Assembly: GCF_000062885.1 (NCBI RefSeq)
Contig: NC_009142.1
Span: 2,841,584 to 2,905,583, forward strand
Reading direction: 5' to 3'
DNA: 64,000 bases
DNA from: Saccharopolyspora erythraea NRRL 2338
GTDB lineage: Bacteria; Actinomycetota; Actinomycetes; Mycobacteriales; Pseudonocardiaceae
Shown one piece after another: positions 1 to 29,900 of the stretch. Numbering within the stretch: the first letter of the stretch is position 1; each line of letters begins with the position of its first letter. Under the pieces are notes generated by a model, which saw only the letters and a list, made by a program, of their open reading frames with translations, ran no database searches and was not told the DNA's origin. The translations under genes and the position numbers were made by a program.

Positions 1-2809
1 TCACCTCAACGTGCGCGACGAGCGTCGCATTCGCTGCGAGCGTGACCACCGCCTCGCTGATCGACGGATGCCGGCGAAGCACGTGCTCGATTTCCGCGGC
101 TTCGACGCGATGTCCCCGCACCTTGAGCTGGTGGTCCGTTCTTCCGAGGAACACCAGGCTGCCGTCGGCGATCTGGCGGACCAGGTCCCCGGTCCGGTAA
201 ACGCGCTCGGAGAATCCCTTCGCAGCGGCGAGGTCCACGAAGCGGCGCTCGGTCTCCTCCGGCCGGTTCAGGTAGCCGTTGGCGACCCCGTCACCGGCGA
301 TGCAGAGCTCACCCGGCACGCCGGGTGGCACGAGCCGGCCGCGTTGGTTCACGACGTAGAAACGGGTGTTCTCGATCGGCTCCCCGATGCGGACAGGTCC
401 TTCTGCGGTGACCTTCCAACGCGCGGACCAGATCGTCGTCTCCGTGGGCCCGTAGACGTTCCACACCTCCGCGCAGCCCTGCACGAGCCGGTCGGCGAGG
501 TCACGACTCAACGCCTCGCCACCGCAAAGCGCCTTGAGCTGCTCGCGTCCTTGCCAACCGGAGTCGAACAGCATCCTCCAGGTGGAGGGCGTGGCCTGCA
601 TGATGGTCGCGCCGCTGGTCGTCATCAGCTCGGCCAGCCGGACCGGGTCGGCCGCCTCTTCTTCCGACGCGACGACCAGCTTCGCACCGGTGATGAGCGG
701 CAGCAGGAGTTCCAGCATCGAGATGTCGAAGGACAGGCTGGTGACCGCCAGCAACACGTCCTGCGATGTGATTCCCGGCTTGCGGGCCATCGCATGCAGA
801 AGGTTCAGCAGGTTGTCGTGCCGCACCTCGACGCCCTTGGGCTTGCCCGTCGACCCTGAGGTGTGCAGCACGTAGGCGGGATCAACGGCGGCGGGCGGTT
901 CGGACCGTCCGTCCACCGGCGGTTCCGAGTCCCGATCGACCAGCAGCGGCCGGATCTCGTCCGGCAGCCGGGTGGCGATGTCCGAGTGCGTGATCACCAG
1001 CCGCATGCCGGTGTCCTCGATGATCCAGGACATCCGCTCGGGCGGGAGGTCGGTGGCCAGCGGAACGTACACCGCGCCCGCTCGGGCCGCGGCCAGCACC
1101 GCGGTCACGATGTCGGCACTGCGGTCCAGGAAGATGCCGACTCGCTCTCCCTTGTCCTGCACCGCGCGGATTCGTCCCGCCAGTGCGGAGACGGCGTGGT
1201 CGAGCTCGGCGTAGCTTAGCTCCGAACCGCGGCAGGCCAGAGCCGTGCGCTCGGGGGTGATTCCGGCCTGCCGAGCCAGAAGTTGGTCGACCGTGGCGTT
1301 CTTGTCGTAGTCAGCCTCGGTGGAGTTGCGGGCTTCGAGGTCGCTGTGCTCCTGCGCGGAGAGCAACGACAACTCTCCGATCGCGGCATCGGGCGAGGCG
1401 AGCAGCAGCTTGGCGAGGTCCAGCCATCGCCGCCCCATCGCCTCGATGCTCGAGCGCTCGAACAGCGCGGTGTCGTAGAGGAAGCTGCCCAGCAGCCCCT
1501 CGTCCTCACCCGGGAAGAAGTGCAGCTCGAGGTCGAACTGCACCGTCCCGTCGTCGAACGGGTACAGCTCGGCGGTCGTGCCGGGAACTCGCAGCGGCTG
1601 GAACGCGTCCTGAAGTGCGAAAAACACCTGGAACAACGCGTTGCGGCTCAGGTCTCGGGTGTCGACCAGCTCGCCCACCAGCTTCTCGTACGAGTAGTCC
1701 TGGTGGTCCCACGCCTCGGCGCACACCTGCGCGACCCGGCGCAGTACGTCGCGGAAGCTCATCTCGGCGGACACTCCGCTGCGCAGCACCAGAGTGCTCA
1801 CGAAGCAGCCCGCCGTGCCTTCGAACTTCTGGTCCAGCCGGTTGGCATGCGGTGTGCCGACCACGAGATCTTCCTGCTCGGTGTAGTGGAACACCAGCAC
1901 GAGGTAGACGGCGAGCAGCGTACCGAACGTGGTGGCCGCTTCGCTCCTGCCGAACTCGGCCAGCTCGGCGGCCAGCTCCGGCGGCAGGGCGAAGTCCACT
2001 CGCCCACCTTCGTAGCCGCGTTGCGGCGGGCGCGGCCGGTCCAGCGGCAGTTCGACCGGAGTCACCGCGTTCAGCTTGTTGACCCAGTAATCCAGGTTCG
2101 AGGCGGCGCCGGGGTCGGCTGCCCGTTCCCGCTCCCATCCGACGTAGTCGGTGTAGTCCAGCGCTCCTTCCGCCGTGGTCTCGTTCCCGGACATGATCTC
2201 GGACATCTCGCGCACGATGAGCCCGGTGGTCCACCCGTCCGCGATCAGGTGGTGCAAGCTCAGGCCCCAGATGTATTCCTGGTCACCGGAACGCAGAAGC
2301 ACCGAGCGCAGCAGCGGACCCTGCGCGAGGTCGAAGGGAGCAATCAGCTCGGCCCTCAGCCGCTGGTCGACCTCATCATGCGAGGCGCCGATGATGTCGA
2401 CGCTGCGGAGTACGGGAGTCAGCCCGGGCTCGACGAACTGCACCGGAGCCCCGTTCACCTCGTGGAACGTGGTCCGTAGGGCAGGGTGCCTGCGCACAAC
2501 GGCATCAAGCGCATCGGCGAACGCGGACGTGTCCACCGGGCCCTTGATCCGGTACGCGACCGAGAACGTGTACGCCACGCCCGTGGGGTCGAGCTTGTTG
2601 AGGAACCAGATGCGGTCCTGCACGCCCGTCAACGGGCAGGCCGTACGCCCATCGAGAAAGTCCAGAATCTCGGACTTGTGCTGCTTCAGCGCATCCTGCT
2701 CGGCCGAGCTCAGCGCACCACGAGCCGCCCGGAGCCGTAGCGCCCCTCCCTCGGACGAGAACTGCACGCCTCTCCGCAGGAGCGGCATTACCAGATCAAC
2801 CGTGCTCAT
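1..2809 (-). CDS. NRPS, docking-C-A (partial, predicted glycine)
   Basis: Nonribosomal peptide synthetase whose 3' end lies beyond the left edge; about 936 residues are visible. Residues 1-55 look like a TubC-type N-terminal docking domain (GVQFSSEGG... then KQHKSEILDFL). A condensation domain follows, with HHLIADGW near residue 185. The adenylation domain starts near residue 490; it shows TSGSTGKPKG, NVYGPTETTIW, YRTGDLVR and the A8 core GRTDHQLKVRG, and is cut before A10 and any carrier domain. Binding-pocket residues read by eye are D-I-L-Q-L-G-V-I-W, one change from the published glycine code DILQLGLIW(K), so glycine is the likely substrate. The ATG overlaps the PKS3 stop by 4 nt (ATGA), so the two are translationally coupled, and the docking domain should receive the PKS3 chain as an amide acceptor. 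Family certain; substrate moderately sure. Confidence 0.93.
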   Translation of the reverse strand, partial: MSTVDLVMPLLRRGVQFSSEGGALRLRAARGALSSAEQDALKQHKSEILDFLDGRTACPLTGVQDRIWFLNKLDPTGVAYTFSVAYRIKGPVDTSAFADALDAVVRRHPALRTTFHEVNGAPVQFVEPGLTPVLRSVDIIGASHDEVDQRLRAELIAPFDLAQGPLLRSVLLRSGDQEYIWGLSLHHLIADGWTTGLIVREMSEIMSGNETTAEGALDYTDYVGWERERAADPGAASNLDYWVNKLNAVTPVELPLDRPRPPQRGYEGGRVDFALPPELAAELAEFGRSEAATTFGTLLAVYLVLVFHYTEQEDLVVGTPHANRLDQKFEGTAGCFVSTLVLRSGVSAEMSFRDVLRRVAQVCAEAWDHQDYSYEKLVGELVDTRDLSRNALFQVFFALQDAFQPLRVPGTTAELYPFDDGTVQFDLELHFFPGEDEGLLGSFLYDTALFERSSIEAMGRRWLDLAKLLLASPDAAIGELSLLSAQEHSDLEARNSTEADYDKNATVDQLLARQAGITPERTALACRGSELSYAELDHAVSALAGRIRAVQDKGERVGIFLDRSADIVTAVLAAARAGAVYVPLATDLPPERMSWIIEDTGMRLVITHSDIATRLPDEIRPLLVDRDSEPPVDGRSEPPAAVDPAYVLHTSGSTGKPKGVEVRHDNLLNLLHAMARKPGITSQDVLLAVTSLSFDISMLELLLPLITGAKLVVASEEEAADPVRLAELMTTSGATIMQATPSTWRMLFDSGWQGREQLKALCGGEALSRDLADRLVQGCAEVWNVYGPTETTIWSARWKVTAEGPVRIGEPIENTRFYVVNQRGRLVPPGVPGELCIAGDGVANGYLNRPEETERRFVDLAAAKGFSERVYRTGDLVRQIADGSLVFLGRTDHQLKVRGHRVEAAEIEHVLRRHPSISEAVVTLAANATLVAHVEV

Positions 2810-5800
2810 ATCTCGATCCGATCCATCGAGTCGACGATCACGCCGGCGTCAACCGCCGGCTGCTCAGAACCCATCAGTGCGAATGCCTCGGCCGCGAGCG
2901 CGGAGATGCCCGCTGCCCGGAGCACCAGCGAAACCGGAACCGTCACGGCGAGATCGCGTAACAGCAGGTTGCGCAGTTCCATCGCCATAAGGGAACTCAT
3001 ACCCAGCGCACTGAGCTGGACGTCGCGGGGAACCTCGTCCGGCGGGAGGTGCAGCACCTGCGCCACGCGGTCGGTCAGGTGGTCCTCGACGGCCTCGCGA
3101 CTGTCCGCCACCGGCACGGCCTCGTCGGTGGGGGCCGTTCTGGGGCCCGGGAGCTGTTCGACGCCTTCCACCATCTCGGCCTGGGTACGCCTTTCCCAGG
3201 CGGGTGCGCAGTCCAGCCAGTACCGCTCACGCTGCCAGGGGTAGGAGGGCAGCGGCACCGTCCGCCCGCCCTCGGGTTGGACGCGATCCCAGTCGACCTC
3301 TCGACCTGCTGTGAACAGCGCGGCGACGGCCTCCAGCAGATCGGCCCGATCGCCGCGGCGCTTGTGGGCCGTGGCAATAGCCGTCCCTGCCGCGCCGACC
3401 GAGTGCAGGGTTTCCTCGATTGCGGGAGCGAGGATGGGGTGCGGGCTGACCTCCAGAAACACCTGGTAGCCCTGTTCGGAAAGCCATGTGGTCGCGGGAG
3501 CGAACATCACCGGCTCACGCAGATTGCGTACCCAGTAGGAGGCGTCGAGATCCGCGCCGTCGCACACCTCGCCGGTAACGCTGGAGCAGAACGGCACCGC
3601 GCCGGCGGTCGGCTCGATATCCCGCAGAGCGGAGCGCAGCTCGGCCAGCAGCGGTTTGACCTGGCGGCTGTGCGAGGCGACATCGATGACCATCTGCCGA
3701 CCGAACACCCCTTCCTGGTCCAGGTCGGCCAGCACCTTCTCGATCGCCACGTGGTCACCGGTCAGCAGCGTGGCGGTCGGGCTGTTGCTCGCCGCGATCT
3801 CAATCTGGCCGCCCCAGCGGTCGACGAGATCACGCGCGTCCGGCAGACTCAGCTCCACCAGCGCCATCGCACCCTGCCCGCGGATACGACCGAGAAGCGC
3901 GCTGCGCAGGCAGATGATCCGTGCGGCGTCCTGGAGTGACAAGGCACCGGCGACGTGCGCGGCGGCCACTTCGCCCATGCTCTGGCCCACCACAGCATCG
4001 GGCTCGATCCCCCATGACCGCCATAGCGCGGCGAACGCCACCTCCATGGCGAACAGCGCAGGCTGCAGATGCTCGACCCGTCCGATTTCCGAGTCCGCCT
4101 GCTCCTGCTGGAGAAACTCGAGGACGGAGAACTCGGCGTACTGCTGGATGGCGGCGTCGCACTCGCCGAGCGCGCGCCGGAAGACTGGCTCGGTGGCGAC
4201 CAGCTCCCGCCCCATTCCCGACCAAGCCGCTCCGTGCCCGGAGAAGACGAACACGACGGGCGGCTTGCCCCGCACGAGCTCAGGGCCGCGCTTGGCGGCC
4301 CGTTCCAACGCATTGGCCAACTCGTCTCGCGAGTCGCCTACCACAGCCAGCCTGTACGGGTGGCGGGCACGATGGGTCGCGGTAAAGGCGACGTCGGTGA
4401 TCGCGAGGTCGCCCCCGCCGCGCAGTGTGCCCGCCAATTCGTCGGCGCCCTGTGCGAGCGCATCTGGGGTGTGCGCGGACAACGGCAGGACCACCGTGTC
4501 CCGTTCTTCGGCCGCCGGCGAGCCGGTCCGCTTTCCGGCCGAGGGATGGACGCGCTGCCAGTTCACGTCCTGCCCCTGGCAGTAGAGCGACCCGAGGGAG
4601 TCGAGCAGCGCCGACCGGCCGGGCTCGGCACGCCGCATGGTCGGCAGAACTTGGCCTTGCCGACCCGCCTCCGAAAGGCATTGCGCCACGTTGCGCATCA
4701 CGATCGGGTGCGGGTTGACGTCGATGAATCGGTCGTGCCCCGAGTCGATGAGCAACCGCACCGTTTCGGCGAACAGGACCGGTTCGCGCAGGTTGTCACA
4801 CCAGTAGCCGGCGTTCAGCTCGGTGCCGGACAGCAACCCACCCGTGACGGTGGAGTAGAAGGGCACAGCGCCGAGGTGCGGGCGCAGACCGCTGAGCGCC
4901 GAGCGCAGCTCGGGCAGCAGGGGTTCCATCTGCGGCGAATGCGAAGCGTAGTCCACCTGGATCCGCCGGACGGTGATGCCGGACTTCGTCAGCTCGGAGG
5001 CCACGTCCTCAACCGCGTCGGCAGCACCCGAGATCACCGTCGCCGTCGGACTGCTGCTGACCGCGATCGAGACCTCGCTGGAGCGCCGTGCGATCAGGCG
5101 ACGCGTCTCCTCGGCCGGCAACTCGACCACGGCCATCCCACCGCGGCCCGCCACGCTGTCGCGGACGATCCTGCTTCGCACGCAGATGATCCGTACCGCA
5201 TCGGCCAGGCTCAGGCACTGCGCGACATGCGCCGCGGCCACCTCACCCATGCTCTGACCGGCCACCGCGCCCGGCTGCACACCCCACGAACGCCAGAGGT
5301 CGGCGAGTGCGACCTGGACCGCGAAGATCGCCGGCTGCACCAGCGGGACGTCGTCCAGCCATGCCGGGTCGTTGCCGAGCAGAACGTCCATGATGGACGC
5401 GTCGAGATAGGGCCGCATCGCTCGGTCGGTCCGCTGCAGGGACGCGCGGAAGGCGGGCTCCGGCAGCAGGTCCTTGCCCATGTTGAGCCATTGGGACCCC
5501 TGACCCGCGAACAGGAACACTGGCTTGGGGCGGTCCTCGCTCACCTCGCCGGTGGCGGTGCCGGCGAGGACCCGGCCGTCCAGGTAACCATCGAGCCGAT
5601 GCACTAGCTCGGCGACCCCACTCGCGGTGACGGCGATCCGGTGCGGCCCTTCGAAGGCCGAACCCTGTGCCGCCGAGCAGAGCTCGGGAAGAGAAGCCTC
5701 AGGCCGGTCGCACGCCTCGCGCAGCTCGGCGACCGCACTGCGCAACTCGGCCGGGCTCGACGCTGCCACCGGCACCAAGCGCAGGTCATCGGTGTCCGGT

Positions 5801-7374
5801 CGCTCCAGGACCACATGGCAGTTCGTGCCGCCGAAACCGAACGCGCTCACCCCCGCCAACGCCGGTCCCTCGCGCTCCGGCCACGCCGTTCGCGAGGATG
5901 CGACGCGCAGCCGGGAGGCTTCGAAATCGATGTGCGGGTTCGGTTCCTCGAAGTGCAAGCTCGGCGGAATGGACCGGTGCCGCAACGACAGGGCCGTCTT
6001 GATGAATCCGGCGATCCCGGCAGCCGCCTCCAGGTGGCCGATGTTGGTCTTCACCGAGCCCAGGATCAGACTGCGGTCAGCCGGGCGCCCTGCGCCCAGC
6101 ACGGCACCGAGCGCGCCGGCCTCGATGGGGTCGCCGAGCATGGTGCCGGTGCCGTGCGTCTCGACGTAGTCGACCTGTGCCGGATCGACCCCGGCGTTGG
6201 CGTAGGCGTCGCGCAGTACCTGCTCCTGCGCCGCCGGGCTCGGCGCGGTAAGGCCATTGCTGAAGCCGTCGTTGTTGACCGCGCTGCCGCGCAGGACGCA
6301 GTAGACCGGGTTGCCGTCGGCCAGAGCGCGCGACAGCGGTTTGAGCACCACGACACCGCCGCCTTCGCCGCGCACGTAGCCGTTCGCGCGAGAGTCGAAT
6401 GCCTTGCACCGGCCGTCCGGGGCCATCGCTCCGAACCGCGACATGGCGACCATGCTGTCCAGCGCGACCAACAAGCTGATCCCGCCGACCAAGGCGACCG
6501 AGGATTCGCCCAGCAGGATGCTTTGGCGTGCCTGGTGCATGGCCACCAAAGCCGATGAGCACGCGGTGTTCAGGGTCATGACCGGGCCGCGCAAGCCCAG
6601 GAAGTAGGCGATCCTGGCCGGGATGATGCTCAGGTCGTGCCCGGTCGCGGTGTGCTGGGTGATGCGGTCGACGGCTCCGGCTGCGAACTGCGCGTAGTCG
6701 TGCCACATAGCTCCGAAGAACACGCCCGTCCGGCTGTCCCTGAGGCTGTGCGGTGCGATGCCCGCGTTATCAAGTGCTTCCCAAGCGAGTTCCAGGGACA
6801 GTCGCTGCTGCGGGTCCATCTCGGCCGCCTCGCGCGGCGAGATGCCAAAGAACTGCGGATCGAATCCATCGATGCGGTCGAGGAAACCACCCCAGCGGCT
6901 GCTGACCTTCCCCGGAGCCGAAGGATCCTGGTCGTAGAGCGCATCGGTGTCCCACCGCCCCTTCGGGACATCGCTGACGGCGTCCACGCCGTTGGAGAGC
7001 AACGACCAGTAAGCATCGAGACCATCGGCCTGGGGGAAGCGGCAGGACATACCGACCACGGCGACCGGGTCGTCCGTGCGGGATGCGGCAGCCGGCGAGG
7101 ACACCTGCCTGGCCGCCGGCTGCGCCCCGACGCTCACCGCCTCGGCGAGGGACCTGATCGTGGGGCTTCCCCAGATCAACGTCGCCGGAAGCTGCCTGCC
7201 CAGCTCGGCACCGAGTTCGGCGAGAAGGCGGTTCGCCCCCAGTGAGTCCAGCCCGTAACGGCTGAAGCGCTCACCCACGTCGATCGAGCGGAGCTCGGTG
7301 CCGGTCAAGGCGGCCAGGCGCGACACCAGCCACTTCTCGATCATCGCGGTGGTCCACGAATCTTCCTGCGCCAT
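2806..7374 (-). CDS. Type I PKS, ACP-KS-AT-AT-ACP (tandem AT)
   Basis: 1,522-residue polyketide synthase. Order: N-terminal ACP (YGLDSL, Ser near 43); KS about 100-530 with Cys in NTACSSA (near 271) and both His (ETHGTGT, KTNIGHLE), so condensing-competent; AT1 about 620-920 (GQSMGE near 708, YASHS near 810); AT2 about 1040-1340 (GHGAAW, GQSMGE near 1133, VASHS near 1231); C-terminal ACP (GMSSL near 1460, with Ser in place of the usual Asp before the phosphopantetheine Ser). No KR, DH, ER or TE, so the beta-keto group is kept. Both ATs have Mas-like GQSMGE and xASHS motifs, which point to methylmalonyl or another branched extender rather than malonyl. I recall tandem ATs with a leading ACP from salinosporamide/cinnabaramide-type synthases, where one AT loads the starter. 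A GAGGG ribosome site precedes the ATG. It feeds the overlapping NRPS. Confidence 0.95.
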   Translation of the reverse strand: MAQEDSWTTAMIEKWLVSRLAALTGTELRSIDVGERFSRYGLDSLGANRLLAELGAELGRQLPATLIWGSPTIRSLAEAVSVGAQPAARQVSSPAAASRTDDPVAVVGMSCRFPQADGLDAYWSLLSNGVDAVSDVPKGRWDTDALYDQDPSAPGKVSSRWGGFLDRIDGFDPQFFGISPREAAEMDPQQRLSLELAWEALDNAGIAPHSLRDSRTGVFFGAMWHDYAQFAAGAVDRITQHTATGHDLSIIPARIAYFLGLRGPVMTLNTACSSALVAMHQARQSILLGESSVALVGGISLLVALDSMVAMSRFGAMAPDGRCKAFDSRANGYVRGEGGGVVVLKPLSRALADGNPVYCVLRGSAVNNDGFSNGLTAPSPAAQEQVLRDAYANAGVDPAQVDYVETHGTGTMLGDPIEAGALGAVLGAGRPADRSLILGSVKTNIGHLEAAAGIAGFIKTALSLRHRSIPPSLHFEEPNPHIDFEASRLRVASSRTAWPEREGPALAGVSAFGFGGTNCHVVLERPDTDDLRLVPVAASSPAELRSAVAELREACDRPEASLPELCSAAQGSAFEGPHRIAVTASGVAELVHRLDGYLDGRVLAGTATGEVSEDRPKPVFLFAGQGSQWLNMGKDLLPEPAFRASLQRTDRAMRPYLDASIMDVLLGNDPAWLDDVPLVQPAIFAVQVALADLWRSWGVQPGAVAGQSMGEVAAAHVAQCLSLADAVRIICVRSRIVRDSVAGRGGMAVVELPAEETRRLIARRSSEVSIAVSSSPTATVISGAADAVEDVASELTKSGITVRRIQVDYASHSPQMEPLLPELRSALSGLRPHLGAVPFYSTVTGGLLSGTELNAGYWCDNLREPVLFAETVRLLIDSGHDRFIDVNPHPIVMRNVAQCLSEAGRQGQVLPTMRRAEPGRSALLDSLGSLYCQGQDVNWQRVHPSAGKRTGSPAAEERDTVVLPLSAHTPDALAQGADELAGTLRGGGDLAITDVAFTATHRARHPYRLAVVGDSRDELANALERAAKRGPELVRGKPPVVFVFSGHGAAWSGMGRELVATEPVFRRALGECDAAIQQYAEFSVLEFLQQEQADSEIGRVEHLQPALFAMEVAFAALWRSWGIEPDAVVGQSMGEVAAAHVAGALSLQDAARIICLRSALLGRIRGQGAMALVELSLPDARDLVDRWGGQIEIAASNSPTATLLTGDHVAIEKVLADLDQEGVFGRQMVIDVASHSRQVKPLLAELRSALRDIEPTAGAVPFCSSVTGEVCDGADLDASYWVRNLREPVMFAPATTWLSEQGYQVFLEVSPHPILAPAIEETLHSVGAAGTAIATAHKRRGDRADLLEAVAALFTAGREVDWDRVQPEGGRTVPLPSYPWQRERYWLDCAPAWERRTQAEMVEGVEQLPGPRTAPTDEAVPVADSREAVEDHLTDRVAQVLHLPPDEVPRDVQLSALGMSSLMAMELRNLLLRDLAVTVPVSLVLRAAGISALAAEAFALMGSEQPAVDAGVIVDSMDRIEI

Positions 7375-9618: not shown

Positions 9619-10503
9619 CAACTCGTTTCAGAATGAGGTTGGTAGTTGGCGGTAGCAGATCAGGACGCATCCGAGCCGGAGGAGCCCGAGGTGGATGTCG
9701 GCGCGGCGTTCGTAGCGGGTGCGGAGGCGTTTGTACTGGTGCAGCCAGGCAAACGTGCGTTCCACGACCCAGCGGACCTTACCGAGACCGGAGCCGTGTC
9801 CGGTGTTGCGGCGTGCGATACGCGGAATGATTCCTCGTTCGCGCAGGGCTTTCCGGTGATGTTCGTAGTCGTAGGCGCGGTCGCCATAGAGCCAGCGAGG
9901 CCGTTGCCAAGGCCGACCGCGCTTACCACGGATCGTGGGCAGAGCCTCGACCAGCGGGATGAGTTGGGTGCTGTCGTGGCGGTTGCCGCCGGTGACCGTC
10001 ACTGCCAGTGGGATACCGCCGGCGTCGGTGATCACATGGTGTTTGGTGCCGGTGCGAGCCCGATCGACGGGCGAGGGGCCCGTCGCCGCCCCCCTTTGAG
10101 CGCCCGCACATGCGATCCGTCGACCACCACAGTGTTCAGGTCGAGCCGATCCAAAGCCCGAAGCTGGTCCAGCAGCAGCTCGTGCACCGCGTTGAACACC
10201 CCGGCCTCGCTCCAGTCCCGCAACCGCCGCCAGCACGTCACTCCGGAACATCCCGCCACCTCGTGCGGTAGTTCCCGCCAGGTGATCCCGGTCTTGAGCA
10301 CGAACACGATCCCGGCCAGAGCGGCCCGATCGTCGACCGGCAACCGGCCCGGGTACCGGCTCCGGCGAGGCGGACGCGCCGGGAGCAACGGCTGCACCCG
10401 AGACCACAACTGATCTGGCACCAACTCCTCGATCACACCATGACCATGCACCGAGTCGATCAACCATCGCTATCAGACACGCCCATTATTCTGAAACGAG
10501 TTG
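9619..10503 (-). mobile_element. IS5-family insertion sequence (IS427-like), complete
   Basis: 885-base element with perfect 16-bp terminal inverted repeats (CAACTCGTTTCAGAAT at 9619-9634 and its reverse complement at 10488-10503). TTA is present directly outside both ends (9616-9618 and 10504-10506), consistent with a 3-bp target duplication. Intact ends and an intact two-frame transposase suggest a recent insertion. It lies between the P450 and a protease gene, inside the cluster region. Confidence 0.92.
9628..10463 (-). CDS. IS5-family transposase, -1 frameshift ORFs
   Basis: DDE transposase in two overlapping frames. The first frame (10463 to about 10032) starts MIDSVHGHG and contains the domain with LWSRVQPLLPAR and VVVDGSHVRALKGG. 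The second frame ends at 9628 and holds TKHHVITDAGG, GDRAYD, VERTFAWL and the C-terminal CYRQLPTSF. Reading ALKGG on into ATGPSPVDRART needs a -1 shift at a run of AAA plus six G (minus strand, 10089-10097). This layout is usual for the IS427 group and argues for programmed frameshifting rather than decay. The stop lies inside the terminal repeat. Confidence 0.9.
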
Positions 10504-12546: not shown

Positions 12547-13742
12547 GAGTCTCCTCCTTCCGCATTCCCCGGACCGGCCAGCGGCCCGGGCGGCGCGAGC
12601 AGGTCCGCGGTGATCTCGGAGACGGCGCCGCTGCCGGTGAGTGCCAGGGCAAGGTCAAGTTCGGCGAGCAGACACCGCAGGACGTGGCTGACGCCCTCCT
12701 GCCCGTCCAGGGCGAGCCCGTAGACGTAGGGCCGGCCGTAGAGGACGGCGTCAGCGCCCAGTGCGAGCGCCTTGACCACGTCGCTGCCGGTGCGCACCCC
12801 GGAGTCCAGCAACACCGGCACGCCGTCGCCGACGGCGGCCCGCACGGCGGGCAACGCGTCCAACGAAGCGACCGAGCCGTCCAACTGGCGGCCACCGTGG
12901 TTGGAGACGACGAGTCCGTCCGCGCCGAGTTCCACCGCTCGTCGGGCGTCGTCGGCGTGCAGGACCCCCTTGATGACGATGGGCAGGCCGGTCAGCGAAC
13001 GAAGCCACGGCAGGTCGTCCCAGGTGAGTCCCGGGTTGGCGAAGACACGCGCCCAGTGCTCGACCACCTCCCGCTCGCCGGCGTCGGACGGCAGACCGCC
13101 CTGGAACTCGGGGTCGCTGACGAAGTTGGCGATTCCCGCGCCGTTGAGGAAGGGCAGGTACCCGTTGTCGAGGTCGGCCGGGCGGTAGCCGAAGCTGGGC
13201 GAGTCGACAGTGAGGACCAGAGCCGAGTAGCCGCTCGCCTCCGCGCGTCTGACCAGGGATTCGCACACCGCCCGATGCGCGGGCCAGTACAGCTGGAACC
13301 AGCGCGGCTGGCCCCCGGCCGCCGCCGCCACGTCCTCGAGCGGGTGGGACGCGCCGGTGGAAAGCACGAAAGGCACACCCGCGTCCGCCGCACCCCGCAC
13401 AGCGGCCAGTTCTCCTTCGGGGTGCACCACTGTTTGCGCGGCGATGGGCGCCAGGAGCACGGGTGCGGCAAGCCGCTGCCCGAACAGGGAGACCGTCAGG
13501 TCCCGCCGGGTGGCGCCGCGCAGCATTCGGGGCACCAGCCGCCACTGGTCGAACGCCTGCCGGTTGGCACGGCCGGTGGCGCCGACGCCCGCGTTGCCCG
13601 CCACGTATCCGTAGGCGTTCGCCGGGAGCACGGCCCGAGCGTGCTCTTCCATACTCGTCAACCCGGTGGGCATCCGCGGCTTGCGACCACCGGTTCCGGC
13701 CAGGTAGATGTCCCGGACCATGTCGGCGTGAGCGCGTGTCAT
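12537..13742 (-). CDS. FMN-dependent alpha-hydroxy-acid oxidase
   Basis: 401-residue TIM-barrel flavoprotein of the lactate oxidase / lactate 2-monooxygenase family; the length is near the lactate monooxygenases. Visible signatures are LRGATRRDLTV, STGASHPLEDV, the FMN/catalytic Lys in VIKGVLHADDA, and SNHGGRQLDGS with catalytic His and Arg, then LDSGVRTGSD and YGRPYVYGL. It would oxidise a 2-hydroxy acid to a 2-oxo acid (or decarboxylate it oxidatively) using oxygen. Its ATG overlaps the thioesterase stop by 4 nt and its end overlaps the FAH gene, so it is made with the PKS machinery. The substrate is unknown. Confidence 0.92.
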   Translation of the reverse strand: MTRAHADMVRDIYLAGTGGRKPRMPTGLTSMEEHARAVLPANAYGYVAGNAGVGATGRANRQAFDQWRLVPRMLRGATRRDLTVSLFGQRLAAPVLLAPIAAQTVVHPEGELAAVRGAADAGVPFVLSTGASHPLEDVAAAAGGQPRWFQLYWPAHRAVCESLVRRAEASGYSALVLTVDSPSFGYRPADLDNGYLPFLNGAGIANFVSDPEFQGGLPSDAGEREVVEHWARVFANPGLTWDDLPWLRSLTGLPIVIKGVLHADDARRAVELGADGLVVSNHGGRQLDGSVASLDALPAVRAAVGDGVPVLLDSGVRTGSDVVKALALGADAVLYGRPYVYGLALDGQEGVSHVLRCLLAELDLALALTGSGAVSEITADLLAPPGPLAGPGNAEGGDSCR

Positions 13743-14551
13743 CGTGTCTCCTGTTCAGGACCTTCGGGAGCACAGGATCCGCAGCCGGATCCTGTGCTCC
13801 CGTGTGCCAGGTCTTCGCGGATCTGGCCGGTGAGCCGTGGCGCGACGCCCGAGTTGGGGGCGGTCAGCGCGAAGTGGCCGCCGGACAGCACTTCGACGGT
13901 CAGCTCGGCCGTGGTGTGCTGTGCCCATTCCCGCATCTGTTCAAGGGTGTTCTTTGGGTCCGCGTCGGCCAGCAGGACCGTGATCGGAATCGACAGGGCG
14001 GTCTCGGGCGTGCAGACGTAGCGCAGCAGCGCGCGGTGGTCGGCGCGCAGCAGGCGCAGTGCCTCTCCAACGATGTCCTCGTCCTTCAGGAGCGGTTCGG
14101 GAATACCGCCCAAGCGACGCAGCTCGGCGACGATGTCGTTGTCACCGAGGGGGTCCAGGTCCGGCTCCTCCCAGTCCTGTGCGGGCGGCCGGGCGGCCGA
14201 GGCGAAGAGCCTCGCCACCCCTGCCCGCTGTTCGAGGAGGCGTGCCGTCTCGAACGCCACAAGCGTTCCCATGCTGTGCCCGAGCACGAACAAGGGGCAG
14301 TCGGTGTGAGCCGAGAGCTCAGCCGCGGCCTCCTCGGCGAGCTCCCCGATCTGTTCGGCGCACGGTTCCATCCGGCGTTCCTGCCTGCCGGGGTACTGGA
14401 ACGCCAGCAACTCGATGTCGTCGGGAAGTTCCGCGGACAGCCGGTTGAAGCTGTTCGCGGTGCCTCCCGCGTGGGGGAAGCAGACCAGGCGTGCGAAGGG
14501 GCTTTCCTTGGCGTGGAAGGTGCGTAGGGCTGAACGCCGGGTTCTGGTCAA
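13739..14551 (-). CDS. Type II thioesterase
   Basis: 270-residue alpha/beta hydrolase of the GrsT/RifR type. It has the FPHAGG oxyanion region, YPGRQER, the nucleophile elbow GHSMG and the catalytic His in SGGHFAL. Such free thioesterases clear stalled or misprimed acyl groups from carrier domains. Since neither PKS1 nor PKS2 ends in a thioesterase, it might also release the PKS2 product, but that is inference. Both ends overlap neighbours by 4 nt (PKS2 before, FMN oxidase after). The C-terminal tail is Gly/Ser/Cys-rich and unremarkable. Confidence 0.95.
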
Positions 14552-20936: not shown

Positions 20937-23900
20937 TCAGGAGTCGCTGTCACCCAGTGCCATGCGCACCAGGTCGTCGCTGCTCATCGTGTCGATCAGG
21001 TTGGTGCCACCCGGTTCCTCCGAGTCGGCCTGCGCCGGTGAGCCCGCCGCGGCGGCTTCGTCTTCCTGCTCGGTCCGTCCGCCGGGGGCGAGCTCGGTGC
21101 GCAGCAGATCCGCCACCGCGCCCGGAGTCGGGTAGTCGAAGACGAGGGTCGAGGGCAGAGCGAGGCCGGTCGCGGCGGTCAGTGCGCGGCGCAGCTCGAT
21201 CGACATCAGCGAGTCGAAGCCCAGGTCCCGGAACCGGGAGTCGGCGGTCAGCTTGTTCGAAGCGACGCCCAGCACGGCCGCCACCTGCGTCCGTACGGAC
21301 TCGACCAGCAGGTACCGGTGGTCTCGTTCCGGCGCGCGGGCGAGTTTCGCCCGCAGGTCCTCGGACTGCTTCTCCCGCGCGGGTGCGGCGGCCCGGTCAC
21401 GCGGCCTTGGGATCAAGGGCCGCAGGACGACGGGCGCGGTATCGGCCTTGAGCTCCGCCAGCTCCAGGCGGGCGGCGGCCAGCACAGGCGAGACAGCGGC
21501 GCACGCGGCGTCGAAGAGGGACAGTCCTTCCCGCTCGGACAGGGCGCGTACACCGGACCGCGCCAGGCGCCGAAGCTCGGCATCACCCAGCCCGGAGGTC
21601 ATCGCGCCTTCGCCGTCCCACAGTCCCCACGCGATGGACACGGCGGGGAGTCCCTCGGCGCGGCGCGCCTGAGCCAGGCCGTCCAGGAAGGAGTTGGCCG
21701 CGGCGTAGTTGGCCTGTCCCGCTGTGCCAAGCAGCCCCGCGGCCGAGGAGAAGAGCACGAACGCCGACAGCTCCATCTCGCGGGTGAGCTCGTGGAGGTG
21801 GAACGCGGCATCGACCTTGGGCCGCAGTACGCCCATCAGGCGGTCCGGGGTGAGCGTGTGGATCGCCGCGTCGTCCAGAACCCCCGCCGAATGCACGACC
21901 CCGGTCAGCGGGTGCTCCTCCGGGACGGCTGCCAGCAAGCCGGCCAGAGCCGCGCGGTCGGCGGTGTCGCACGCCGCGATGGTCACATGCACGCCTTCGC
22001 CCGCCAGCTCGGCGGCGAACTCTTCGGCACCCGGTGTGCGCATGCCTCGGCGTCCGGTCAGCAGCAGGCGCCGAACACCGTGCTCGCCGGTCAGGTGCCG
22101 GGCGATCAACCGCCCCAGGGTGCCCAGGCCGCCGGTGACCAGCACGTGGCTGTTCTCGTCGAACGGCGACGCACCGCCGGGGACGGCCGGCGACCGGTGC
22201 AGTGCCGGCACCAACGCCGTTCCCGCCCGGATCGCGAGCTGTGGTTCGCCGGAGGCCAGTGCCTCGACCAGAGCCGGTCCCGACCCGGCTAGGCCGTCGG
22301 TGTCGATCAGCGCGAACCGGCCGGGATGCTCGGCCTGTGCGGATCGGATCAGTCCCCACACCGGCGTACGCGCGAGATCCGCTCGCTCGTCTTCGGCCAC
22401 CGCTACGGCACCGGTGGTCAGCAGCGCGAGCCGGGAGCCGGCGAAGCGCTCCACGGCGAGCCAGCGTTGCGCCAGTTCCAGTGCGGCGCGGCTCGCGTGG
22501 CCCGCCGCGGCGGGCATGGCCTGGCCGGTCGTGTCGTCCCCGATGCCCACCGCGACAACGAGTTCGGGTACTGGCGCACCCCGGTCGACCGAGTTCCGCA
22601 GACCTTCGATGTCCGGATAGCTGCTCACGCTCTTGCCCGCGGCACGCGCCGCGTCGGCCACCCCGGTGCGGTCGGTCCCCACGACCGCCCAGGAGCCGGC
22701 GGACCTCGGGGACGGAACCGTTGCCCGCCACGGCTTCCACGTCAGTGCGAACAGCGAGTCGCGGTGCGCCGCGGTCCGGGGAATCTCGCGCAGCGCGAGG
22801 GACTCGACGCTGAGCACCGCAACGCCGGACTCGTCGAGGACCAGCAGGGAGAAGGAGTCGGCCGCCAGCCGGCGCAGGCGTATCCGCAGCGAGGTAGCGC
22901 GGGTGCCGTGCACTGTAAGGCCACTCCAGTCGAATGGCACGAGCAGGCGTCCGTCGTCGCCGAGCGCACCGCTGAGAAGTGCGTGGAGTGCGGCGTCAAG
23001 AGCGGCGGGATGCAGCAGGAAGCCGTCGTTGCGCGACTTCAGCGACTCCGGCAGAACTACTTCGGCGTACACGTCCGATTCCCCGCGCCACACCGCACGC
23101 AGCCCTTGGAAGGCAGGTCCGTACTCATAACCCCGTCTGGCGAGGCGTGCGTAGAGATCGTCGATGGGAACGGCGGTCGCCTCGCGCGGTGGCCATACGG
23201 CCAGGTCCGCGACATCGGCCGGAGCGGCTTGCCCGCCACCCGACGTGCCGACGGCATGGCGGGTCCAGTCACCTTCCGGCGAGTTCGCGGGCCGGGAGTG
23301 CAGCGTCAGCGACCGCACACCGCCCGCGGTCACCGGCCCCACCACGAGCTGAACGTCCACGGTGTCGTCGAGCGCCAGCGGTGCTTCCAACGTCAGGTCC
23401 GCCACCTGGTTGTCGCCGGCCCGTCCAGCGGCGTACAGGGCGAGTTCCGCGATGGCCGCACCGGGTAGCAGAGTTGCGCCCTGGACGCTGTGCTCCGCGA
23501 GCCACGGGTGGGTGTCGAGGCCGAGGCGCCCGGTGAACAGCCAGCCTTGGCCGCCGGCCAGCTCGACCGAACCCGGGACCAGCGGATGCCCGCCCGATGC
23601 GCTCGCGGCCGGGGCCTGGGCCAGGTCGTCGTGGAGCCAGTAGCTCTCGTGCTGGAAGGCGTAGGTCGGCAGCGGTACGGCACGGCCGCCGGGCAGGAGA
23701 ACCGACCAGTCGACGGGCACTCCGTTCACGTGGGCACCGGCCAACGCCGCGGTGAAGCTCCCGGCCTCCGGGTGACCGCCACGCAGCAAGGGGATGGCCG
23801 GCGCGGCCCCGTGGTCCTCGTCGGCTGACGACATGCGCACCAGCGCGCTGAGCGTGCCACCGGGACCGAGCTCGATGAACGCACCGACCCCGTGGCGCCG

Positions 23901-26900
23901 CAGGAAGGTGATGCCGTCGTGGAAGCGCACCGATTCGCGCAACTGCCGGACCCAGTACTCCGGGTCGGCGAGTTCGGCGGCGGTGGCGGGCTGCCCGGTG
24001 ATGTTGGAGATGATCGGGATGGCGGGCTCGCCGAAGGTCATGCCGCTGGCCACGGCGCGGAAGTCATCGAGGATCGCGTCCATGTGCGGCGAGTGGAACG
24101 CATGGCTGACGCGCAGCCGGGTGGTCTTGCGCCCTTCGGCTTTCCACCGCAGCTCAACGTCGGCCACGGCTTGCCGGTCGCCGGCGACCACGACCGAGCG
24201 CGGACCGTTGACCGCGGCGATCACGGCGCTCCCCGCGTGGCCGGCGAGGGTGGGCAGGACCTCCTCGGCACTGGCCTCGATGGCGGTCATCGCGCCGCCC
24301 GGCGGCGCGGACTGCATGAGCCTGCCCCGTGACGCCACGAGCGCACAGGCGTCGTCGAGGGTGAACACGCCCGCCACGTGGGCGGCGGCCAACTCTCCGA
24401 TGGAGTGGCCCAGGAGGTAGCCGGGGATGGCCCCGCAGCTCTCCACGAGCCGGAACATGGCGACTTCCAAGGCGAAAAGGGCCGGCTGGGTGTAGCGGGT
24501 CTCGTCGAGCAGGGCGGCTTCGGCGGTGCCCTCGCCGGCGAACATCAGATCCTTGAGCGGCACCTGGAGGTGCTGGTCCATCCGCTCGCACACGGCATCC
24601 AACGCCGAGGCGAACACCGGGTACGTCTCGTACAGCTCACGGCCCATGCCGGGACGCTGGCTGCCCTGGCCGGCGAAGAGGAAGGCGGCCGGGGACGACC
24701 CGTCCGCGCTTCCGGTCACCACGTCAGGCACCCGTTCACCGCGCGCCAGCGCCTCCAGCCCGCTCAGCAGGCCGTCGTGGTCGGACGCGAGCACGACGGC
24801 CCGGTCCACGAGCGCCGCTCGGGTCATCGCCAGGGAGTAGGCCAGGTCGAAGTGGTCCGTGCCCCAGTCCGGTCCGGCCGCGGCCGCGACCGGCCGCAGG
24901 CGTTCGGCCTGTGCTTCCAGCGCCGCCGTGCCCCGTGCCGAGATCACGAAGGGCAGCGGCCCGACCGGCTGCGGATTCCGCCGTTCGACGGCGCGCCCGG
25001 CGGGTGCCTGCTCCACGATGACGTGCGCGTTGGTCCCGCTGATCCCGAACGACGAGACACCCGCCCGGCGGGGGCGGCCTCGCCGCGGCCAGGGCGTCGC
25101 CTCGGTGAGCAGCGACACGCCGCCGACGCTCCAGTCCACATGGGACGTCGGTTTGCCGGCGTGCAGCGTGCCCGGCAGCACACCCTGCCGCATCGCCATG
25201 ACCATCTTGATGACGCCGCCAACGCCCGCGGCCGCCTGCGAATGACCGATGTTCGACTTCAGCGAGCCCAGGTACAGCGGCTCCGCGCTGTCGCGCTCAA
25301 CGCCGTAGGTGGCAAGCAGCGCCTGCGCTTCGATCGGGTCGCCCAGCCGGGTACCAGTGCCGTGAGCTTCCACCGCGTCCACGTCGGCGGGCGCCAGTCG
25401 CGCCGTGGCCAGCGCGTCGCGGATCACCCGCTCCTGGGAGGGACCGTTCGGCGCGGTCAGGCCGTTGCTCGCACCGTCCTGGTTCACCGCCGAACCCCGT
25501 ACCACGGCCAGCACCTCGTGCCCGTTGCGCCGGGCGTCGGACAACCGCTCCAGCAGCAGCACACCCACGCCTTCACTCCACGCGGTGCCGTCCGCGGCGT
25601 CCGAGAACGCCTTGCAGCGGCCGTCCGGTGACAAGCCCCGCTGACGGCTGAACTCCGCGAACGTGTTGGGTGAGGACATCACGGTGACGCCGCCGGCCAG
25701 CGCGAGCCCGCACTCGCCACGTTGCAGGGACTGCGCGGCCAGGTGCAGGGCCACCAGGGAGGACGAGCACGCCGTGTCCACAGTGATCGCGGGGCCCTGG
25801 AAGCCCAGCGCATAGGACACCCGCCCCGAGACCACGCTCGGCGAGTTCCCGACGAAGCGGTACGCCTCGGTGCTCTCCGGCGTGGTGCGCAGGCGCGAGA
25901 GGTAGTCGCTGTACATCACGCCGGTCAAGACCCCGGTACGGGTCCCGCGCAGAGCGGTCGGGGCGATGCCCGCGTTCTCCACTGCTTCCCACACGGTTTC
26001 CAGCAGCAGTCGCTGCTGCGGATCCATGCCGATGGCCTCGCGAGCGCTGATCCCGAAGAACTCGGCGTCGAACCGGTCGGCGTCGTAAAGGAAGCCGCCG
26101 TGGCGCGTGTAGCTTTTGCCCGGACGATCGGGATCCTCGTCGTAGAGGTTCTCGACGTCCCAGCCGCGGTTCGTGGGGAAGGGGCCGATGGCGTCCGTAC
26201 CGGTTTCGACCAAGCGCCACAGGTCCTCGGGCGACCGGACGCCTCCCGGGTAGCGGCACGCCATGCCGACGATCACGATCGGATCATCGTTGGCGGCAGC
26301 CGGCAGGGGCACCGCGGTGCCCGAGGCGGTGACCTGGCCGGACGCGGACTCGCCCGCCGTGCCGGCGACCTCCGCCAGCAGGTGGTCGACGAGGGCGGCC
26401 GGGGTCGGGTGGTCGAAGATCAGGGTGGCGGTGAGCCGGGTGCCGGTCACCGACCCGACCCGGCTCCGCAGTTCCAGGCCCGCCAGCGAATCCAGGCCCA
26501 GATCCTTGAACGGCGTACCGGGGTCGACGGGAGCGGCGCCGTCCAGCCCTAGGACGTCGGCCAGCGTCGCGCGGACCAGTTCCGCCACCGCGCGCCGGCG
26601 TTCGCCGGCTGGAAGCGCGGCCATGCGCGCCGGCCAGGACGTGGCCTGCCCGGTGTCAACCGACGCGGCACGGCGTCGCGCCGGGTGGACGAGATCGCGC
26701 AGGAGCGCCGGTGCGGAGGTGCGGCGGTCCGGCGCGTTCAGCTCGGCCAGATCCAGTTGGACCGGCACAAGCAGGGCCTCGCCACCGGCGAGAGCCGCGT
26801 CGAACAGCTCCAGGCCGCGGTCGGTGGACAGCGCGGTGACACCGCGGCGGCTCCAGCGGGTGATGTCGGCCTCTGCCAGCGCCCCGGCCATGCTCCCCTC

Positions 26901-29900
26901 GGACGCCCAGAGCCCCCAGGCCAGGGAGGTGGCGCACAACCCGCGGGCGTGGCGGTGCCCGGCCAACGCGTCCAGGAAGGAGTTGGCCGCGGCGTAGTTG
27001 GCCTGCCCCGGACTGCCCAGCAGACCCGCGACGGAGGAGAACAGCACGAAGGCCGACAGCCGGGCCTCCAGAGTGAGTTCGTGCAGGTTCCAGGCCGCGT
27101 CGACCTTCGGACGCAACACGTCGGCCACGCTTTCGGGGGTGAGGTTCTCCACCGTGGCATCCGCCAGGACACCCGCGGTGTGGATCACACCGGTCAGCGG
27201 GTGCTCGGCGGGGATGGCCGCCAGCAGTTCGGCGAGTGCGGACCGGTCCGCGACATCGCACGCGGCGATCGAAACCCGCGCGCCGGCTTCGGTCAGCGAG
27301 GCGGCCAGCTCCGACGCGCCTTCGGCGGCGCCGCCACGGCGGCTGGTCAGCAGCAGGTGCCGCACGCCGTACCGGGTGACCAAGTGGTGGGCCAGCAGTG
27401 CGCCGAGCCCACCGGTTCCGCCGGTGATGAGAACGGTGCCGTCCGGGTCCAACTCGCCGGGCGTGCGTACCTGCGCATCCGTCCGGCGCCGCAAGCGCAT
27501 CGCACACACCTGCCCGTCGCGCAGGGCCAGCTGTCGCTCGTCGGCGGTAACCGCGGCGGCCAGGACCTCGGGCGAGAGCCGGGCACCGTCGACGTCCACG
27601 AGTGCGAAGCGGTCGGGATGTTCGCTTTGGACCGTGCGAAGCATCCCCAGCACTGCGGCACCCGCGAGATCCCGGACGTCCTCGGCGCCGGTGACGGCCA
27701 CTGCGCCACTGGTGAGCACCAGGACACGAGTGTCGGCGAGCCACTCGTCGGCCAGGCAGCGCTGCACCACCGCGAGCTGGTCGGGGACGGCGGTGTGCGT
27801 CGCCGACACCGGGTCGGCGCTGTGCTCGGGTGCGGTCACGCACTCGGTGATAAGGAGGTCCGGGACTTCCGCGCCCGCGCCGATGGCGCTCCCCAGCGCA
27901 TCGAGGTCCGGATGGCTGTCGACGTCAGCACCCGCCGCGGCCAGCGTTTCCCGCACGCCCAGCGGGTCGGCACCGATCAGCGCCCACCGGCCGGCCGTCT
28001 TCGGGGAGATATCGGCTCCGGCGTTCGGTAGCTGCCTCCAGCCGACGGTGTACACGCCGTCGTGCCGTGTGGCGTCCGGTCCCGAGACCGCGGTCTCGGG
28101 AAGCGGCCGCAATACCACATCTTCGATGGTCAGCACCGGGGCACCGGCGGCGTCGGTGGCGATCAGGGATGCGCGATCGGTTCCGGTCAAAGTCCAGTGG
28201 ACGCGCAGCGTGGTCGCACCTGAAGCGTGCAGGGTCACGCCGCCGAAGGAGAACGGCAGCCGGACACCCGTGGTCTCCCCGTGCTGGTCGTCGATCAGCA
28301 GCGCGTGAAGCGCCGCGTCGAACAACGCGGGATGGATGCCGCATCGGGCGGCTTCGGCGTGGTGTTCAGCGGGCAACGACACCTCGGCGAACCGATCACC
28401 GGCCGACTGCCAGACGCTGCCGAGTCCCCGGAAGGCAGGTCCGTACGCGTAACCGATCTCCTCCAGACGTTGGTAAAGGCCGTCGGTTTCGACGGGACAA
28501 GCGCCTTGCGGAGGCCAGACGTCTGAAGCGGTAGCGTCGGGGCGGTCGTCGGCAGTGAGTACGCCAGTGGCGTGCCTGATCCACCCCTCGGTGTCCGGGG
28601 ACCGCTCTCCGTCGCCGATCTCAGAACGCGAGTACACGGCGATCGCGCGCTCGTCGGCCGAGTTCGCGGGGCCGACCTTCACCTGCAGCCGAGCGGCCCC
28701 GTCCACGGGGATGACCAGCGGCTGCTCGATCGCCACTTCCCGCAACCGGTCGCAGCCGAGCCGGTCACCCACCGCGAACGCCAGCTCAACGATGGCGGTG
28801 CCGGGCAGCAGCGCAGTGCCGCCGACCACGTGGTCGGCGAGCCAGGCGTGGGTATGGCGCGAGAGACGGCCCGTGAACAGCACGCCGTCCCCTTCGGCGA
28901 GCTGCGTCATGCCGCCGAGCAGCGGGTGGTCGACGGCCTTGAGTCCGACCCCCGCCGCGTCCGCGGTCCCGACCTGGGTGCCGAGCCAGTAGCGGCGGCG
29001 CTGGAAGGGGTATGTGGGCAGGGAAATCCGTCGCGCACCCGGGAAGAGGCGCTCGGTGTCCAAAACCGCGCCCTGCGAGGCAGCGGTACCGAGCGCGGCT
29101 GCGAACCCGTGCGCTTCGGGATGGTTCTTGCGGAGCACGGCGACGGCCTTCGCACTGCCGGCGTCGGTCTCGTCGAGGCACGCGCGGGCCATGGCCGCCA
29201 CTACCGGGCCCGGACCCAACTCCAGGTAGGTGGTGACGTTCCCGTCTTGGAGGGTGCGGACTCCGTCGGCGAACCTGACGGTGCCACGGAGCTGACGCGT
29301 CCAGTAGCCGTGGGATGCCAGCTCCTCGCGGGAGACGACCTCGCCCGTCACGTTGGAGATCAGCGGGATGCGCGGGGCTGCGTAGCTCAAACTCGCCGCC
29401 ACCTGGCCGAACTCCTCGAGGACACCGTCCATGTGCGCGGAGTGGAACGCATGGCTGACCTTGAGCTGCGTGACCTTGCGGTCCATCTCCCGCCACGAAC
29501 GGGCCAGTTCGAGCGCAGAACTCTGGTCACCGGAGACGACCACGGAGGCGGGCCCGTTGACGGCGGCGAGGTCAAGCCTGCCCTCGTACGCGGCGACCGC
29601 CTCGCGCATCTCGGCCTCGCCCGCCTCGAAAGCGATCATGACGCCTCCGCCGGGAGCGGCCTGCATGAGCCTGCCTCGGGCAGCGACCAGGGTGCAGGCG
29701 TCATCGAGGGTGAGCACACCTGCCGCGTGTGCCGCCGCGAGTTCACCGACCGAGTGCCCCATCACGTAGTCGGGGGTGAGCCCGCAGTGCTCGAACAGCC
29801 GGAACAGGGCTGTTTCGACGGCGAACAGCGCCGCCTGCGCGAAGACGGTCTGGTCCAGCAGGTCCGCGCGGTCTGACTCGCCGAAGAGCACGTCTTTGAG

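Follow-up and report, generated by a model that had tools for sequence, protein, structure and literature searches.

The 64,000-nucleotide stretch of DNA from Saccharopolyspora erythraea NRRL 2338 analysed here (positions 2,841,584 to 2,905,583 of contig NC_009142.1; hereafter the window) encodes, close to its left end, a polyketide synthase (PKS) in which two acyltransferases (ATs) stand side by side behind a single ketosynthase (KS), with an acyl carrier protein (ACP) at either end of the chain. This ACP-KS-AT-AT-ACP protein is probably a split starter module combined with a first extension module in one chain, in which AT1 would serve the N-terminal ACP and AT2 the C-terminal ACP. The architecture is already known, so that finding tandem ATs is in itself nothing new. 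What can be proposed beyond the preliminary description of this DNA, which had suggested that one AT loads a starter and the other an extender, is a polarity: the sequences suggest that the AT on the KS side is the starter-type enzyme.

The anatomy of the protein can be read directly from its translated open reading frame (ORF). The Pfam family Acyl_transf_1 matches two stretches (564.5 bits against a cut-off of 32.7) and PP-binding also matches twice, with a KS match at residues 102-476 and a CurL-like_PKS_C match at 962-1023, ahead of AT2. The nucleophile elbow contributes Ser708 in AT1 and Ser1132 in AT2, and the catalytic histidines are His812 in YASHS and His1235 in VASHS. Each AT also has the arginine which binds the free carboxylate of malonyl-type CoAs, R733 in AT1 (numbered by counting) and R1157 in AT2. 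The KS residues Cys272, His407 and His447 and both ACP serines are all present, the N-terminal ACP motif reading GLDSL and the C-terminal one GMSSL in place of GxDSL. Ketoreductase (KR), dehydratase (DH) and enoylreductase (ER) domains are absent from the domain set of the PKS. An AlphaFold2 model of residues 530-1420, built on 20 sequences and with a mean predicted local distance difference test score (pLDDT) of 85.4, was read through its secondary-structure string only, which displays two copies of the AT pattern and, ahead of AT2, a folded stretch. The two complete ATs of the preliminary description, each with GQSMGE and a YASHS or VASHS box, are borne out by Pfam, the residue check and this model, as is its ACP at both ends; the loss of catalytic His or Ser from one AT, which it had named as refuting, is not seen, both ATs carrying both residues. 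All that a split starter module of the MiuA type requires is present in one chain: an N-terminal ACP, a KS, an adjacent pair of complete ATs and a C-terminal ACP.

This order is more than chance, because it recurs elsewhere and is kept in orthologues. A query of 281 residues spanning the AT1-AT2 junction, compared with 394 genomes of the class including the organism's own (up to six candidates scored per genome), was matched from position 1 or 4 through 281 in at least three of the 393 other genomes (G290, G394 and G347), the matches belonging to Streptomyces piniterrae, S. netropsis and Streptomyces sp. JJ36. The nearest relatives found, the PKSs of Lentzea albida, L. jiangxiensis and Lentzea sp. 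NEAU-D7, are about 67% identical and have the same domain order, and in all three both ATs keep the checked catalytic residues.

The preliminary description had recommended AT trees, and in the maximum-likelihood tree built here from 78 ATs (82 were aligned and four fragments of under 250 residues dropped) AT1 and AT2 fall apart. S. erythraea AT1 groups with the Lentzea AT1s (support 100/100), and the next sequences out are exclusively first-position ATs, those of Plesiocystis (L078), Sorangium So0157-2 and Paraliomyxa (98/96). For AT2, the Lentzea AT2s are the only resolved neighbours (100/100). Second-position ATs are found in several places: those of Paraliomyxa and P. spinosispora (n=2) sit with the window's HAFHS malonyl-type ATs (100/100), five more with the ATs of DEBS (100/98), five in a SalA-like clade and the rest elsewhere. 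The first-position label requires four changes on the tree against a shuffled mean of 24.1 and the second-position label eight against 22.9, and a single clade of all 28 AT2s is rejected with a p value in the approximately unbiased test (p-AU) of 1.2e-75. The carboxylate-binding Arg is replaced in 10 of 30 AT1s and in none of 28 AT2s (full-length ATs of tandem proteins), by His in six SalA-like ATs, Tyr in two, and Met and Ser in one each, although these replacements fall in two or three clades and should not be counted as ten separate events. In the DEBS loading AT, which takes a monocarboxylate, Trp occupies this position. Since AT1 groups with first-position ATs and AT2s lie among different extender ATs, AT1 is assigned as the putative starter AT and AT2 as the putative extender AT. 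Together with the active-site residues, the trees make the division of labour raised in the preliminary description likely.

Several observations weigh against this assignment. Both ATs keep the Arg, so that AT1, with R733 in place, is not a typical monocarboxylate loader; 20 of the 30 AT1s do the same, and the layout is therefore not defined by a missing Arg. The DEBS loading AT stands apart from the AT1s, a single clade of all 30 AT1s is also rejected (p-AU 0.005), and S. erythraea AT2 joins the Lentzea AT2s but no known extender clade. The deep branches of the tree are weak and the bootstrap is not settled. The Lentzea clusters hold a discrete AT that could serve one of the ACPs, and no test of the MiuA AT assignment itself was seen in its published description (PMC10051162). 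Finally, the two ATs are 45% identical (domain limits from phmmer), and a joint S. erythraea/Lentzea clade of AT1 and AT2 is only weakly rejected (p-AU 0.035). A recent tandem duplication of one AT was nevertheless set aside on that identity, that test and the separate positions of the two ATs in the tree.

The opposite polarity, with AT1 as the extender AT in its normal place behind the KS and AT2 as an added starter AT, is unlikely. It would agree with the usual KS-AT module, in which extender loading falls to the AT that follows the KS, with the methylmalonyl-type YASHS box and Arg of AT1, and with an AT2 that has its own linker and no resolved extender relatives. It accords poorly with the confinement of Arg replacement to first-position ATs and with the grouping of seven second-position ATs with malonyl-type or DEBS extender ATs; moreover, the first AT of MiuA is named a loading AT from in silico analysis (PMC10051162).

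With AT1 as the starter AT, we infer the following scheme of AT-ACP pairing, substrates, docking, order of steps and product. AT1, lying directly behind the KS, would take the starter acyl group off CoA and reach past the KS to load it on the N-terminal ACP, from which it would pass to Cys272. AT2, equipped with its own linker domain, would charge the C-terminal ACP with an extender. Condensation of the two by the KS would give a 2-substituted 3-oxoacyl-ACP, because no KR, DH or ER is present. The short conserved tail of the PKS would hand this chain to the TubC_N docking domain of a non-ribosomal peptide synthetase (NRPS), whose condensation (C) domain would form an amide with the amino acid on the peptidyl carrier protein (PCP), most likely glycine, to give a 2-substituted 3-oxoacyl-glycine. 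Pointers to this handover are the 4-base overlap of the NRPS start codon with the PKS stop, the TubC_N domain on the next protein and the tail itself, which reads SMDRIEI in S. erythraea and SMDRMEL or SMDWMEL in the three Lentzea proteins. A Cys-type thioesterase-like (TE-like) protein, a flavoprotein of the old yellow enzyme (OYE) type and a cytochrome P450 would probably release and tailor the product. Because AT1 keeps its Arg, unlike the first ATs of MiuA and the SalA-like proteins, the starter may enter as a dicarboxylic acyl-CoA and undergo decarboxylation; alternatively, the Arg may lack diagnostic value. By analogy, a longer extender may be the substrate of AT2, whose box is VASHS in S. 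erythraea and VAGHS in Lentzea, since such boxes have been tied to ethylmalonyl: in a study of kidamycin, VASH is given as an ethylmalonyl sign, and AT1-2, with VAGH, handles ethylmalonyl and malonyl (PMC10646177).

The whole gene set is shared with Lentzea. Between S. erythraea and the three Lentzea species (loci L065-L067 and L153-L158, with genes called by a simple GC-frame script) the PKS is 67% identical, the NRPS 67-68%, the OYE-type protein 70-71% and the P450 73-74%; the TE-like protein is 82% identical over its full length in two of them, the third having been seen in part. The 4-base gene overlap is shared as well. In all three Lentzea species the set is additionally adjoined by an IclR-type regulator, a discrete AT and a chorismate-binding enzyme (the L. 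albida copies were scanned), the last of which NCBIfam identifies in L. albida as a salicylate synthase (437.9 bits, cut-off 325). A homologue of the latter, 52% identical, lies about 90 kb from the operon in the S. erythraea genome, and no stand-alone acyl ligase was found among the genes scanned beside the S. erythraea and Lentzea PKS-NRPS sets; salicylate was, on both counts, not taken up as a starter. The discrete AT bears on another alternative, slightly less probable than the reversed polarity: that one of the two ATs is a redundant or decaying backup, with its partner serving both ACPs or with priming of the N-terminal ACP in trans. The discrete AT of the Lentzea clusters, an abnormal AT2 in Plesiocystis, a relative in genome G032 with an adenylation domain ahead of its ACP-KS-AT (on a contig which stops about 150 residues past the AT) and the kidamycin loading protein with its two co-operating ATs (PMC10646177) could all be cited for it. 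Both ATs, however, retain the checked catalytic residues here and in the three Lentzea orthologues, and a search of the S. erythraea genome with the discrete AT returned no clear orthologue, only 33 matches of 25-37% identity, nearly all in large frames.

A more distant version of the set occurs in Nannocystis (L098 and L101, with L133 in broken frames), which shares the ACP-KS-AT-AT-ACP order, the protein with C and adenylation (A) domains and the TE-like protein with Cys. The Nannocystis PKS is 45% identical, its AT1 box is YAAHG and its AT2 box FPIHC, and a close OYE homologue was not found there (best E value 9.6e-28, 33% identity). The A-domain specificity residues of Lentzea and Nannocystis, the latter from NRPSs in frames annotated with hidden Markov models (HMMs), match those of S. 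erythraea by eye at all positions bar one, which is Val in S. erythraea, Leu in Lentzea and N. bainbridge and Met in N. exedens.

The TE-like protein lacks the standard triad of a Ser or Cys nucleophile with the His of GGHF. In S. erythraea and the three Lentzea species it carries Cys in GNCMGG, and GGAL stands where the usual GGHF has its His; the N. bainbridge protein has GFCMGG, with AAMF at the His position, and in N. exedens the Cys is present and the sequence stops ahead of the His region. A structural model built on four sequences (pLDDT 71) matched alpha/beta-hydrolase thioesterases, and among solved structures the thioesterases of NRPSs and Pks13 come closest in both sequence and fold. 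Since AB3403 (4zxh), the solved structure that matches best, likewise carries Cys where the nucleophile aligns, the Cys has a precedent and does not appear unusual; the absent His seems the odder point.

The features of the operon and its surroundings are given in Table 1. Downstream of the PKS gene the order is NRPS, TE-like protein, a 659-residue FMN/NAD oxidoreductase and a transposase. The model that the oxidoreductase resembles most is mycofactocin OYE_2, although its 499 bits stay under the family's cut-off of 793. The preliminary description had the partner protein as a docking-C-A(Gly) NRPS, and a TubC_N-C-A-PCP protein is indeed found, with HHLIADG as its C-domain motif. Its A-domain specificity residues, D-I-L-Q-C-G-V-I-W as read by eye, appear to resemble the glycine code DILQLGLIWK.

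Table 1. Coordinates of the tandem-AT PKS, its domains and associated genes; plain numbers are window positions, and prefixes denote other numbered loci
Feature	Position	Strand	Basis or remark
PKS gene, ACP-KS-AT-AT-ACP, 1522 aa	2806..7374	-	ORF and Pfam
N-terminal (putative loading) ACP, aa 15-80, Ser44 in GLDSL	7135..7332	-	PF00550; Ser number by counting
KS, aa 102-525, Cys272/His407/His447	5800..7071	-	Pfam ketoacyl-synt N and C, KAsynt_C_assoc
AT1, aa 619-929, GQSMGE / R733 / YASHS, putative starter AT	4588..5520	-	Pfam, phmmer, tree
Second KS-AT-type linker domain, aa 962-1027, before AT2	4294..4491	-	PF22621, PF22336; AlphaFold2 model
AT2, aa 1041-1352, GQSMGE / R1157 / VASHS, putative extender AT	3319..4254	-	Pfam, phmmer, tree
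C-terminal (putative extender) ACP, aa 1424-1492, Ser in GMSSL	2899..3105	-	Pfam
NRPS, TubC_N docking-C-A-PCP, 1107 aa	2..2809 in window (936 aa); whole, L009:14486-17809	-	Pfam
TE-like protein, 320 aa, Cys in GNCMGG	L009:13462-14424, left of window	-	
Cytochrome P450, 417 aa	8039..9292	+	73-74% identical to Lentzea cluster P450s
Transposase	9628-10467	-	Right of operon, between operon and neighbouring PKS line
Transposase	L009:10550-11374	-	Other flank of operon, beyond flavoprotein
Lentzea discrete AT	L153:9408-10331	-	
Lentzea salicylate synthase	L154:4159-5442	+	

The tandem-AT PKS fits the orphan cluster nrps2-pks of S. erythraea, a match inferred from gene order. Published tables list nrps2-pks as a four-gene cluster (printed as SACE 2618-1622, evidently a misprint) separately from pks2 (2628-2631) (PMC2206050, PMC3827479). 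Literature searches with the locus tags SACE_2617 to SACE_2622, taken singly, found no paper in the library searched, and no product of nrps2-pks was found in the literature searched for S. erythraea, a search bounded to that species and thus exclusive of Lentzea and Nannocystis products. The genome is a single contig of 8,212,805 bases, and a PKS set ordered like DEBS, with an AT-ACP loading part and a single DH-ER-KR module, lies at 0.79-0.82 Mb. The neighbouring PKS line (14548-34667) includes a 4576-residue protein (20937-34667, minus strand) which opens with a KSQ-AT-ACP loader (VDAGQASSL, Cys replaced by Gln) and so looks self-starting and separate from the PKS-NRPS operon. That the tandem-AT protein belongs inside this line or at its end, rather than being a starter, is very improbable. 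The two do lie nearby on the same strand, and the KS-AT of the tandem-AT protein shares 47% identity with the one that comes first in the 4576-residue PKS. The link was set aside in view of the line's own loader; in addition, a transposase and other genes intervene, no Lentzea orthologue of the line was found in the 40 kb compared (another L. jiangxiensis PKS, about 6 kb past the set, is at 34% identity) and, as noted above, the published tables keep nrps2-pks and pks2 apart. A further thioesterase in the window (13739-14551) has a normal Ser and His. An AMP-binding-like protein at 36365-38865 on the plus strand (28 bits, slightly below the family cut-off) stands beside an aldehyde dehydrogenase/LuxC-like protein and is not linked to the tandem-AT PKS.

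The preliminary description had called a tandem of ATs in cis rare. On comparison, the arrangement proves to be a recurrent one for starter modules in a published account (PMC10051162), and it turned up repeatedly in a scan of a genome collection with a KS-segment alignment from four tandem proteins, the counts of which, given these seeds, are not frequencies in nature. The scan matched 108 stretches, and among the matches listed 80 loci had their domains called with custom HMMs. AT-AT occurs in one frame in 29 of these, from actinobacteria, myxobacteria and one acidobacterial metagenome-assembled genome. Three Lentzea and two Nannocystis loci have the ACP-KS-AT-AT-ACP order with a separate C-A protein, six are SalA-like, including that of Salinispora fenicalii and one split over two frames (L100), and 18 have KR, DH or ER between AT2 and the last ACP, the N-terminal ACP of one (L074) being out of frame. 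A single AT, in the order ACP-KS-AT-KR-ACP, is found in ten loci. The other 41 are the third Nannocystis locus (L133), left out of the AT-AT count for its broken frames, together with cut-off loci and other types. An apparent triple AT in Enhygromyxa (L142) was discounted, its middle match being a fragment of 125 residues, and a second AT-AT frame of L089 (12833-15940), based on matches of 66 and 116 residues, was dropped. The AT2 of Plesiocystis pacifica (L102), with GHGLGE and YPRGT in place of a normal elbow and His box, looks dead. In L063 (G032:C4) an adenylation domain precedes an ACP-KS-AT which is 47-50% identical to that of S. erythraea; a second AT is possible beyond the contig end.

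It is attractive to consider what this set of genes might produce. With only four genes and a P450, and close relatives in Lentzea, the set points to a small compound in the erythromycin species. It is possible, albeit doubtful, that the PKS, NRPS, TE-like, OYE-type and P450 set of S. erythraea and Lentzea, with its distant version in Nannocystis, defines a distinct product family, built from a dicarboxylate-derived starter, an alkylmalonyl-type extender and glycine, and cyclised or transferred by a His-less Cys alpha/beta-hydrolase. If so, the products may be small glycine-derived pyrrolinones or tetramates, with a release unlike that of the SalA type, by a stand-alone KS, or that of an ordinary thioesterase. 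As read from the tree, AT2 would have been exchanged between lineages (malonyl-type, DEBS-type and SalA-only clades) and AT1 changed less. The module may thus document how ATs have been swapped in nature, and could inform attempts to engineer the first extender unit.

Among known systems, a parallel for the loading logic is MiuA of the miuraenamide pathway. As described, MiuA is ACP-KS-AT-AT-KR-ACP, its first AT is taken in silico as the loading AT for acetyl-CoA, the extender order is mal-mmal-mal-mal, with malonyl as the first unit added, the same loading type is cited for soraphen, myxothiazol, myxalamide and chondramide, and the pathway proposal is stated in the abstract to be verified through gene disruption (PMC10051162). 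The locus of the miuraenamide producer Paraliomyxa miuraensis SMH-27-4 (L069) has the MiuA layout, with Ser for Arg in AT1 and an AT2 in the malonyl-type clade. The S. erythraea protein has the same ACP-KS-AT-AT start, its AT1 belongs to the same clade as that of L069 (98/96), and the same loading logic is proposed for it; MiuA differs in having a KR, in continuing as a PKS line and in an AT1 without the Arg which S. erythraea keeps. The loading protein Kid13 of kidamycin, AT-KSQ-AT-ACP, likewise contains two ATs, here co-operating, but has no N-terminal ACP (PMC10646177).

The preliminary description had likened the protein to the salinosporamide and cinnabaramide synthases, and this stands for layout and fails for closeness. 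SalA and CinA share the ACP-KS-AT-AT-ACP order followed by C, A and PCP, as well as the combination of one PKS unit with one amino acid. The SalA-like loci (L105 of Salinispora fenicalii and L096, L097, L099, L100 and L103 of Streptomyces) are, however, 40-43% identical to the S. erythraea PKS over long alignments, and 45% for the split frame of L100, compared with about 67% in Lentzea. A characterised synthase of near identity, which the preliminary description had named as refuting, was not among the PDB chains and genome scans compared. The PKS of the SalA/CinA type ends in a C domain and leaves A-PCP to the following protein, whereas the S. erythraea PKS stops after its ACP and docking-C-A-PCP follows. 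In all six SalA-like loci a stand-alone KS comes next, the role of SalC after the A-PCP gene; S. erythraea has the TE-like and OYE-type proteins instead. The SalA-like AT1s have His where S. erythraea AT1 keeps Arg, and the A-domain core differs in the three viewed. Neither S. erythraea AT falls in the SalA-like AT1 clade or the SalA-like AT2 clade (100/100 each). Of the two ATs of Salinispora fenicalii, only the second carries the Arg, a pattern which fits a loading AT placed first in the chain; for SalA, AT1 (extender) and ATL (loading) are phylogenetically distinct (PMC8609351). Because the gene split, the downstream genes and the AT clades all differ, the S. erythraea PKS is, on its sequence, a member of a known layout and not an orthologue of SalA.

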